IMG/VR virus record: IMGVR_UViG_3300045999_003838
Location: 1 to 30,226 of that record
Length of the DNA stretch: 30,226 nucleotides
Origin: a virus
Direction: 5' to 3' (one strand)
A program made the translations under genes and the position numbers. The notes under the pieces were generated by a model. It searched no databases and was not told the origin of the DNA. It was given only the letters and a program-made list of their open reading frames with translations. This document shows positions 1 through 3,256 of the stretch, piece after piece. Position 1 is the stretch's first letter; the number at the start of each line of letters is the position of its first letter.

Positions 1-622
1 AGCCACGAAGTTCATAACCACCTTCTGAAATTACACTAGAACAAACTTGTTTCAGTGTGCTTGAACTTGTTGTAATTCCAGTATTTGCAATCTCATATCT
101 CAAAGGTAATGATGCCGTTGTAATATAAGTTGAAGTGATTAAGTTTGCGTGATGGAATGAATGGCAGTGAATAAACTTCCCATCAACTACAAAACCCAAT
201 CTAACTGTTCCAAGTCCCAACCATTCAATATCCATCCACAAAATTTGTGCTTTGGAAATATCTAATGTAACACCAGATGGATTGAGATGCCCTGCACCAA
301 GCATCGTATCAATATTCCAGTTATGTTGCGAAATTTGTGTTGTTATTCCAGTAGATAAACTTCTTTCTACAAAATATAAAGTACTTCCATCAAGTTCTAG
401 ATACATTCCATTATCTGCACCAAAGTATCCTACTCTTTGACGAAGATTTGCTTTTGCTGGGTTCATTACAAAGGTATTCATTACTTGTAATGATTTTCCT
501 GGTTGATATGAAAATACTTTTGTAGTTTCTCTGATGATTGATGCGGTGCTTCCAACACCAACAGTCATATTAATCAAACCTTGTGCAGTTACAAATCCAA
601 CTGTTGAACCAGCACAACTAAA
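1..622 (-). pseudogene. Continuation of the frameshifted structural protein, running off the left edge
   Basis: Reading the minus strand from 622 in the -1 frame gives 207 uninterrupted codons to the window edge. The text is coherent: FSCAGSTVGFVTAQGLINMT, VFSYQPGKSLQVMNTFVMNP, NLRQRVGYFGADNGMYLELD, SKAQILWMDIEWLGLGTVRL, GFVVDGKFIHCHSFHHANLI and a final ISEGGYELRG. This is the body of the virion structural protein begun at 891. The gene is partial at the window edge. Function is unassigned; the beta-rich sequence and late-operon position support a structural role. Whether the break is real or a one-base sequence error cannot be told here. Confidence 0.75.
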
Positions 623-891
623 CCACTCCAAAGATTATTATCTCTATATCTGTGAGAACTGTCAAAAAGTGTTAATGGACTTGAAGTTCTTTGTCTACCA
701 AATGCATCAGTAGATGTTGATGGCAAAGTTACTGATACTGTCGATAAAGTTGAAATTCCAACAGTTCCTGTAACTGGAAATGGATTATCAACAGTAACTA
801 CTTCGCCATTCTTATTGGCGACCATATTAACTTCAAAAAGAGTTCTCTCTTGATTTAAAAAATCTTGAGTATTTTTATTAAATTGTGCCAT
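589..891 (-). CDS. N-terminal part of a frameshifted virion structural protein (100 aa as read)
   Basis: Begins MAQFNKNTQDFLNQERTLFE and contains DAFGRQRTSSPLTLFDSSHR followed by YRDNNLWSG. After residue 83 or so the frame reads a short unconserved-looking tail (LVVLVQQLDL) and stops at TAA. Sequence of the form GR.R.S.P.TLFDSSHRYRDNNLWS is, as I recall, typical of a longer T4-like cyanophage structural protein. The -1 frame continues with matching sequence from 622 to the window edge, so this is one gene broken by a missing base, probably a T in the TTT at 620-622. A GGAG sequence precedes the ATG, which lies three bases after the stop of the 104-aa gene. Confidence 0.75.
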   Translation of the reverse strand: MAQFNKNTQDFLNQERTLFEVNMVANKNGEVVTVDNPFPVTGTVGISTLSTVSVTLPSTSTDAFGRQRTSSPLTLFDSSHRYRDNNLWSGLVVLVQQLDL

Positions 892-894
892 TAA

Positions 895-1209
895 TCACTC
901 ACTCCAAGACAATCTTTCTGGTTGATATCTTTGCGTATTTTTAATTCTTAAAGAACTTTGTGATTGTGATGGGTAAATGTTATGAACAATTGCTCCAGGA
1001 TATTCACCCTGAAGTTGTTCTGTGAGAGCGTTTTTGTTCATCATCTTACCTTCAACTTCAATGCGATATAGTTTTCCTTCCCAAACTACATCAGCAAGAA
1101 AAGATTCGGTTGCTTGCTCTGGTTGAGATTCACCATTCATATAAAGATTTCCATTGAAATCTCCAGCGATATTGATGCTTTCTGATAAGAATTGTTGAAA
1201 AGATTTCAT
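895..1209 (-). CDS. Small protein with T4 capsid-targeting-like leader (104 aa)
   Basis: The N-terminus is MKSFQQFLSES. This closely resembles MKTYQEFIAEA, the capsid-targeting leader of T4 internal head proteins (recalled from memory), and it contains L-S-E at residues 8-10, fitting the [LI]-x-E cleavage rule of the prohead protease gp21. The remainder has VVWEGKLYRIEVEGKM and ALTEQLQGEYPGAIVHNIYP, a compact alpha/beta look, and a polar C-terminus (RYQPERLSWSE). It starts one base after the stop of the 535-aa gene and ends three bases before the next ATG, in one operon. A head-packaged internal protein is the inferred role; no enzymatic motif is seen. Confidence 0.72.
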   Translation of the reverse strand: MKSFQQFLSESINIAGDFNGNLYMNGESQPEQATESFLADVVWEGKLYRIEVEGKMMNKNALTEQLQGEYPGAIVHNIYPSQSQSSLRIKNTQRYQPERLSWSE

Positions 1210-1210
1210 T

Positions 1211-2818
1211 TTAGTTACAGTTCCAACGACGGAGGGCTTTGTTGATTCTTGAATCTGGGTCTCTAGCAGTCTTAGCGGAAGTCAATTTTGCTTTCATTCC
1301 TGACATACGACTACAAAAGTTTTTACGACGCTTTGCTCTTTTACCCTTTGGTTTTTTCTCAGTTACAGCAGTCTGAAGTTTTGAACCTGGATTCTCACGA
1401 CGATAAGCATTTACAGCTTTCTGACTAAGACCATCAGTTTTATCTTTGCGATTTACTGATTGCCAATCTTCAGAAAGTTCTTCTCTCCAGTTTGAAAATT
1501 GCTCTTTTTTTACGCAACGATTATAAGTTTTTCCAAATAGTTTTTGTGTTCCTTTTTTCTCATATCCTGGCCAACATTTTTTTGCTTCTTCAACATTATG
1601 CTCACCACTTTCAACATAATCTGCTGCGGTATCAATATAATCTGCCGCTTTAGTAATTTTTGATTGTACCCATGCCTCAATGCTTCCCTCACCCTTCATT
1701 TTTTTCTTTAAACGCTTCGCTGCAGAAATAATTGTTGAGAGTTCAGAGCGAGCCATTGAATACTCATGATCTTTTTCCTCATTTGCTGGGTGAGGACTAT
1801 TCGCATGATAATGAGGATTTGACATTGCCACTGATGACAAATTAATTGGTAAAGAATATGTATCCCAATATTTTGGACCATACTTACATTCATCTCTTAG
1901 TTCATTCTTTTTACATCTAGGGCAATATCTTTCCATATTAACTTGCTCCGATTTGGTTCCCCAATTATCAGCACCTACTTTACGACACTTGACAAGTGCT
2001 CCTGAAGCATAAGCACTTGGCCAAACGCTGTATCTTGATTTTACTTTATTATAGCAAGCGTCTTTTTTGCCGCTGCCTTTTCCTGGTTTATCTTTTACTT
2101 CTTGGAGATTCATTTCTTCTGTTCTGACATTTGTTGGACTTACTCCACCAGTTTTCTCTGGTTGGTTTGGATCTAATCTATTCTTTCTTCTTCTTGCTGA
2201 CTCTTCTTCATCTTTTGAGAGATCTCTTTTCATTTTTGAACTTCCACACTTTGGAGTGGAAGTCTGACCAGGTTGACGAGCACAAGGTTTTCCTGCCCAT
2301 TTACCACCTAGTTGAACCCATCCAGATTTTCCATCGGAAGACTTTGACTTACCAAACCAATCACGAAGTCCCTCATCCCCAGATTTAGTTTCTTCATAAG
2401 CCATACCAACTCTAGTATGCTTCAATTCTCCTTTTTGTTTAGCAATAAGTTTTTTTGAAGCAACTTTTGCACCCTCCGGAGCACTCATTACATTTTCATC
2501 TGGAGTTTTTCTACTTGGATTGTCATAAACATCCACATCACCATCAGCATCTCTATCAACATATTGCTTAACCGCATGATGAACCAATTGCTTTAGATCA
2601 AGATTTGGATCAAGTTGATGTTGAGATTTTGGTAAATGCTTTGTTTTATGAGTAAACTTTGTAAAAGTTTGTGGTTCCTTTGCTTCAGAAAAGGGAGACT
2701 TTGATTTAGTCACTTCGCCTCTTTGTCTTTTTTTACGAGCAGCACAATGAGATTTTTGAGAAAATCCTTTTGGACTATCACAATCAATTGATCTTTTATA
2801 TTTTTTAGACCAACTCAT
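1211..2818 (-). CDS. Basic, cysteine-bearing mosaic protein (535 aa), possible head-interior protein
   Basis: No known activity. It strings together short modules: DCDSPKGFSQKSHCAARKKR (12-31); a perfect EF-hand-like loop DRDADGDVDVYD (88-99); a DUF5872-like part with GLRDWFGKSKSSDGKSGWVQ and two Cys (150-192); KKDACYNKVKSRYSVWPSAY (251-270); a Cys cluster CPRC...DEC (C299, C302, C311); a long helix MARSELSTIISAAKRLKKKM (355-374); CWPGYEKKGTQ..C (415-435); and a C-terminal SQKAVNAYRRENPGS plus CSRMSGMKAKLTSAKTARDP block resembling DUF6321. Several modules are familiar to me from separate cyanophage proteins. It contains LQE (238-240) and LSE (448-450), which fit the T4 prohead-protease site. 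It sits where gene 17 is expected. The reading frame is unbroken and no rival frame is convincing. Confidence 0.8.
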   Translation of the reverse strand: MSWSKKYKRSIDCDSPKGFSQKSHCAARKKRQRGEVTKSKSPFSEAKEPQTFTKFTHKTKHLPKSQHQLDPNLDLKQLVHHAVKQYVDRDADGDVDVYDNPSRKTPDENVMSAPEGAKVASKKLIAKQKGELKHTRVGMAYEETKSGDEGLRDWFGKSKSSDGKSGWVQLGGKWAGKPCARQPGQTSTPKCGSSKMKRDLSKDEEESARRRKNRLDPNQPEKTGGVSPTNVRTEEMNLQEVKDKPGKGSGKKDACYNKVKSRYSVWPSAYASGALVKCRKVGADNWGTKSEQVNMERYCPRCKKNELRDECKYGPKYWDTYSLPINLSSVAMSNPHYHANSPHPANEEKDHEYSMARSELSTIISAAKRLKKKMKGEGSIEAWVQSKITKAADYIDTAADYVESGEHNVEEAKKCWPGYEKKGTQKLFGKTYNRCVKKEQFSNWREELSEDWQSVNRKDKTDGLSQKAVNAYRRENPGSKLQTAVTEKKPKGKRAKRRKNFCSRMSGMKAKLTSAKTARDPDSRINKALRRWNCN

Positions 2819-2830
2819 TGAACTACAAGA

Positions 2831-3256
2831 TTATTCTTTATTATTTAGAAAACCTTGCTTGAGTAATTTTGATAGCTCCGATGTTGATCCAACAAATAAA
2901 GCATTGTTTGTGACATTGTTTGTTGTTTTTACTGTATCTTCTTCAACATCCTTTAATTTCTTTTGTAAATCTATAAGTTTATCAGTTACATCACCAACTG
3001 ATTTGATTAATTGTCCAGCAACTTCATATGCTCTGGGAGAACCACCCTCTCCTGCCAGTTCCATAATGCCATTAATTGCTTCTTGTCCCTTTTCAATCAA
3101 CGAATATAAGTTTGCACGAGTATATTCATAATCTTTTTTAATGTCATTACTCAGTTCCTTAACGGTATCTAAAGTAGGTTTGTAGTTACTATCTACTTCT
3201 ACAATGCTACTTTCAACATTCAGTGCTTCATCAATTTTTTCAAACTTATTTGCCAT
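2831..3256 (-). CDS. gp16: Small terminase subunit gp16 (141 aa)
   Basis: DNA-recognition and regulatory subunit of the packaging motor. Helical protein with residues 41-60 KDYEYTRANLYSLIEKGQEA, SPRAYEVAGQLIKSVGDVTD at 73-92, LIDLQKKLKDVEED at 94-107 and NVTNNALFVGSTSELSKLL at 114-132. T4 gp16 (164 aa), from memory, shows the same order: [48 protein letters not shown]. It directly follows gp15 as in T4. The next gene is not the large terminase gp17, which is unusual for T4 order. No strong ribosome-binding sequence is seen before the ATG. Confidence 0.83.
   Translation of the reverse strand: MANKFEKIDEALNVESSIVEVDSNYKPTLDTVKELSNDIKKDYEYTRANLYSLIEKGQEAINGIMELAGEGGSPRAYEVAGQLIKSVGDVTDKLIDLQKKLKDVEEDTVKTTNNVTNNALFVGSTSELSKLLKQGFLNNKE

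Follow-up and report, generated by a model that had tools for sequence, protein, structure and literature searches.

The window (the whole stretch of 30,226 nucleotides analysed here, IMG/VR record IMGVR_UViG_3300045999_003838, positions 1 to 30,226) carries a gene for a 104-aa protein that starts with MKSFQQFLSES. Does this start act as a capsid-targeting leader of the kind known from the internal proteins of phage T4, and if so, what does the protein behind it do? The locus comprises the following features:

2..891, minus strand: virion structural gene (phrog_1645), downstream of the 104-aa gene; cut by the window end, frame broken near 610-613.
895..1209, minus strand: gene of the 104-aa protein, phrog_1742 family, conserved in cyanophages between gp16 and gp17.
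1177..1209, minus strand: capsid-targeting-like leader MKSFQQFLSE (residues 1-10) plus Ser-11; predicted gp21-type cut after E10.
895..1179, minus strand: predicted mature part, residues 11-104, acidic, pI 4.9.
1211..2818, minus strand: 535-aa upstream neighbour, phrog_727 family with DUF6321.
2831..3256, minus strand: terminase small subunit gp16, a late head gene, given for context.

The ORF at 895-1209 begins with an ATG at 1209, which is the first start after a stop codon. Residues 1-102 of its product cover positions 1-105 of the 108 positions in the phrog_1742 profile (E 5.4e-40), and the closest named relative is found in S-SRM01 (79% identity). Matches to the protein occurred in 135 of 50,697 phage records, all 135 of them from cyanophages. 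The minus strand of the window presents T4-like late genes in the order baseplate wedge, gp14, gp15, gp16, the 535-aa protein, the 104-aa gene and the structural gene. Comparison of 12 phages showed gp16 and gp17 as the flanks in most of them, where the 104-aa gene immediately precedes a virion structural gene and, for the most part, immediately follows a gene of phrog_727 type or another one without assignment. By tblastn, the corresponding S-SRM01 structural protein matches the downstream gene in two frames that meet near 610-613, so that the 100-aa ORF at 589-891 is only the start of this gene; either an error in the assembly or a genuine frameshift may lie behind the break. The leader is absent from the 535-aa neighbour and present on a phrog_727 relative, L359, and on the S-SZBM1 neighbour _192. 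A W-R-E-E-L-S-E stretch occurs in the 535-aa protein (FSNWREELSE) and in gp155 of S-CREM2 (YSWREELSE) and is a possible second shared motif.

The preliminary description had aligned MKSFQQFLSES residue by residue with the T4 leader MKTYQEFIAEA. We confirmed this alignment, as well as the position of codons 1-11 at 1177-1209. T4 reads MKTYQEFIAEA at 66415 and 65718, both on the minus strand, in two internal proteins. We also observed that a 54-aa T4 ORF at NC_000866 19130 (minus strand) begins with MKTFKEFIKED and fits the leader rule like IPII and IPIII. In the T4 IPIII leader, residues 4 and 7 act in targeting and residues 8 and 10 in processing, according to the accessible part of a T4 review (PMC9026906). 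These are also the conserved positions in the 104-aa family. Among 71 distinct homologues, from scans that had leader peptides among their patterns and so favour leader-bearing matches, M1, K2, F7 and E10 are found without exception. Position 4 has F in 67 and Y in four, position 8 has L, I or M in all 71, position 11 has S in 67 and A in four, and the most variable leader position is 5. Nine divergent named phages were found by tblastn, free of this bias. Since residues 12-25 are conserved to the same degree as the leader in the 71 homologues, leader conservation alone is no proof of a separate leader in this family.

The preliminary description had placed a prohead-protease cut at L-S-E, with the mature protein starting at Ser-11, and had looked to a gp21-type protease elsewhere in the phage. 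The gp21 family (PF03420) was detected in 18 of 18 related records vs 0 of 14 control genomes, which bears out the protease for the phage group; the window itself is only a 30-kb fragment. T4 gp23 reads FLTE65-A66 at its cleavage site, and when the major capsid proteins of 12 cyanophages were aligned with it, phi-[LI]-x-E-[AVT] was retained there in all 12, with FLSEA in S-SRM01. The leader of the 104-aa protein ends in the same form, F-L-S-E before S. Given the leader motif and a major-capsid site of the same phi-[LI]-x-E form, the leader is probably cut after Glu-10 to give a mature start at Ser-11, as judged from sequence. A further conserved L-x-E lies at residues 62-64 of the family, within a predicted helix (59-69).

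We next consider whether the leader occurs on other proteins. The pattern M-K-x-F-x-Q-F-phi-x-E-A was found in at least 120 stretches of IMG/VR, with 80 loci among the matches listed. Two leader proteins no longer than 40 aa were set aside before clustering, and the mature sequences of the other 78 fell into 24 BLAST clusters among the matches listed. The biggest of them (43 proteins, among the matches listed) is a cytidylyltransferase, named so by its likeness to an S-SRM01 protein that matches CTP_transf_like. Other clusters match phrog_727, DPBB_1 lytic transglycosylase, GNAT acetyltransferase, glucosaminidase, DUF6267 and phrog_2563, and one is a phrog_1742 relative as judged by eye; in a Pfam/PHROG scan of 10 cluster representatives, four gave no match. 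The leader of the cytidylyltransferases fits the position pattern of the 104-aa family in 70 of 72 distinct sequences. Its entropy is 0.2-0.4 bits at positions 2 and 4, 0.1 at 7 and 0 at 10, and exceeds 2.3 at positions 3, 5 and 9; variability is higher in the linker 61-115, at 2.43 bits. The two misfits are S-SZBM1, where the leader is shifted by one residue, and one locus that has no leader when read from the match start. A short module AKRLGLVGDGHGGWYD...GKLKYFN was seen after the leader in cytidylyltransferases (L097:5428-6750 and relatives L218-L297), and in a looser form in the S-CREM2 kinase gp14; besides the leader, this could be another element that packaged enzymes have in common.

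To relate the leader to packaging, we turned to published virion proteomes of three cyanophages, using the accessible parts of the reports. Enzymes recur in them (NMNAT, kinase, SAM hydrolase), and in these parts the choice between cargo and contamination is left open (PMC9602691, PMC10665884). For S-CREM2, 52 virion proteins are given as detected (Table 3, PMC10665884). We used a rule A (M, F/Y/L at 4, F/Y/W at 7, a hydrophobic residue at 8 and E at 10, at annotated starts), which fits 6 of 219 S-CREM2 CDS when the annotation is used for 1-45,000 and 125,001-174,876 and our own scan plus Table 3 for the middle. According to the same table, five of the six were detected by mass spectrometry, namely the SAM hydrolase gp6, gp13, the kinase gp14, gp136 and the cytidylyltransferase gp154, and gp175 was not; compared with 52 of 219 overall this gives p 0.003, for a rule that had been widened after the S-CREM2 N-termini were inspected. 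Between gp15 and the tail sheath of this phage lie the leader-bearing gp136 and then the DUF6321-type gp137, both listed as detected; a homologue of the 104-aa protein was looked for in S-CREM2 and not found. The Cas9-like gp12 (OR473000 7704-10313, minus strand), also listed in the virion, contains the leader-like stretch LRFASFMAEA at residues 17-26, with a CTG codon at residue 17, and was left uncounted since the stretch is not at the start.

In S-SCSM1, the leader-bearing NMNAT gp281 is reported in virions, and gp030, the homologue of the 104-aa protein, is not among the 45 proteins given as detected in the accessible part of that report. Similarly, neither the homologue _191 of S-SZBM1 nor its neighbour _192 is among the 30 of 218 proteins given as detected; the cytidylyltransferase _140 is detected, and was left out of the count as its leader is shifted by one residue. 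Over the three proteomes, as far as they were accessible, rule A proteins were detected in 6 of 10 cases vs 2.0 expected (p 0.006), with 0 of 2 for the homologues of the 104-aa protein. The strict T4-derived rule in place of rule A gave 4 of 6 (p 0.014), and rule A without the phrog_1742 homologues gave p 0.0016 on the same data. The suggestion in the preliminary description that the leader marks other cargo genes is supported: it is reused on unrelated mature parts, and several proteins that carry it were detected in virions.

Taken together, we consider it likely that the 104-aa protein opens with a T4-type capsid-targeting sequence of 10 residues, and that this leader belongs to a wide cyanophage set. 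During head assembly the leader would bind the prohead scaffold core through F4 and F7 and carry the protein inside, where a gp21-type prohead protease would cut after L-x-E at residues 8-10 and free a 94-aa protein that begins at Ser-11. In T4-like cyanophages the same leader would serve as an address tag that can be moved between proteins; it is found on many unrelated ones, including the virion-detected enzymes. We regard entry of the 104-aa protein into the prohead as probable.

What it does there can be read in two ways. It is possible, though we put it forward only tentatively, that the leader works and that the protein is a prohead-core or assembly component, which gp21 trims or degrades and which leaves the head or stays at very low copy. 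This would agree with the two accessible proteomes in which its homologues went undetected, with the acidic mature part, with the extra L-x-E at residues 62-64, and with a gene that is conserved and syntenic between gp16 and gp17, unlike the variable T4 internal proteins. However, with 30 or 45 proteins reported, one of about 100 aa can easily escape detection, and the L-x-E in the predicted helix may be buried.

The other reading, proposed in the preliminary description, is that the protein is packaged, injected with the DNA and acts early on the host. Of that description the T4-type leader stood; the presence of the 104-aa protein in mature heads and its injection are predictions, and its homologues went undetected in S-SCSM1 and S-SZBM1. 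The leader resembles that of the T4 internal proteins, and leader-bearing enzymes are reported in S-CREM2 and S-SCSM1 virions, both of which speak for injection. The mature part differs from what T4 would suggest: its pI is 4.9 vs 9.3-9.5 for T4 IPII and IPIII, so that the small and basic trait of T4 internal proteins is absent, and the fast-changing mature part typical of them was not seen in the family. For comparison, 20 of the 24 cluster representatives (among the matches listed) have a pI of 8.0 or above.

The AlphaFold model of the 104-aa protein (mean pLDDT 65) is confident only in a beta-beta-alpha-beta core at residues 36-80, and residues 1-32 are mostly below pLDDT 50. A low-confidence start followed by a folded core is what the model would be expected to show for a leader before a folded domain. 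A Pfam search with the protein gave nothing at E 0.1, and with 25 family members at E 5 only scattered weak matches; with the model, no Foldseek match had an E below 0.12 and no VIA-align match reached Z 5. The core weakly matches small RNA-polymerase-binding proteins such as T7 Gp2 (E 0.12, Z 4.3), which would suit an early action on the host, but these matches are within noise. We set aside the likeness to T7 Gp2, YkzG and phycobilisome linker domains, as the matches are not significant and the small fold is a common one. Injection is a reading we put forward with reserve, and a head-core role fits equally well. Three points speak against a cargo role of the 104-aa protein: it is undetected in two of two proteomes, acidic, and conserved in place between gp16 and gp17.

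Could the N-terminal match be chance, or a resemblance inherited without a targeting function? The strict rule ([KR]x[FY]xxF[ILMV]xE after M), counted in 14 sequences (the window and 13 phage records), fits 26 of the 5004 Met that lie among the first 30 codons vs 0 of the 10635 internal Met (p 1e-13, with homologues counted repeatedly). A degenerate DNA pattern for the leader had matches in 17 of 20 records and its reversed form in 0 of 20. In IMG/VR, two scrambles of the leader pattern with the same residues gave 0 and 0 matches. Among the matches listed there, 80 of 81 are gene starts with 29 or fewer open codons upstream, and the remaining one lies near a contig end in a reading of only 16 residues. 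A search of 84,980 bacterial and archaeal genomes (257 Gb) with the unscrambled leader pattern gave 23 matches, six of them at gene starts. Two of these six, L426 and L433, have the DGHGGW module that the phage cytidylyltransferases contain, and both are apparently phage DNA within MAGs. On an Acidimicrobiaceae MAG contig (L422, 3741-3772, minus strand) a leader-bearing gene start precedes HAD-like sequence; this locus is possibly phage DNA. The leader match of the 104-aa protein is not due to chance, and start-site enrichment, the scramble and cellular controls, position-specific conservation and reuse on unrelated proteins together make a resemblance without targeting function very unlikely. 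That these gene starts share a signal in the DNA or for translation, and not one in the peptide, as the location at the start codon could suggest, is barely credible, since synonymous positions vary (TTT/TTC, CAA/CAG, several L and I codons) while residues 4, 7 and 10 stay, and the free positions 3, 5 and 9 vary.

Beyond this locus, we find it reasonably probable that T4-like cyanophages use M-K-x-F-x-x-F-[LI]-x-E, followed by A or S, as one tag by which a broad and exchangeable repertoire of proteins enters the head and is delivered at infection. The proposed cargo comprises NMNAT/cytidylyltransferase, SAM hydrolase, kinase, GNAT acetyltransferase, DPBB lytic transglycosylase, glucosaminidase and many unknowns. 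If true, the tag would explain the recurring enzymes in cyanophage virion proteomes, and in any such genome or metagenome the sequence would be enough to predict injected cargo. With a shared tag and a defined cut site, the choice between cargo and contamination becomes an N-terminal peptide test.

Our search of one open-access collection found no paper that ties a capsid-targeting sequence to cyanophages. The papers on S-SCSM1, S-SZBM1 and S-CREM2 report virion detection and, in the parts accessible to us, mention no targeting leader. The virion-associated NMNAT/cytidylyltransferase, kinase and SAM hydrolase of these phages carry the same leader or its one-residue-shifted form and differ from the 104-aa protein in their mature enzymes. 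The F-L-x-E form before A in T4 gp23 is the same as well, but there it belongs to an internal propeptide of a shell protein and not to an N-terminal tag. With the capsid-targeting sequences of T4 IPI-IPIII the 104-aa protein has in common a 10-residue N-terminal leader with K2, an aromatic residue at 4, F7, L or I at 8 and E10, a gp21 protease in the phage group, and a leader placed on unrelated mature parts. Unlike the T4 internal proteins, it belongs to phages of a cyanobacterial host group, with an acidic and conserved mature part and a gene that is syntenic with head genes; other cyanophage leader cargo includes metabolic and nuclease-like enzymes, and packaging and cleavage of the 104-aa protein are predicted. 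Finally, the protein is a whole-length member of phrog_1742, a cyanophage family without an assigned function, to which the leader reading is added here.
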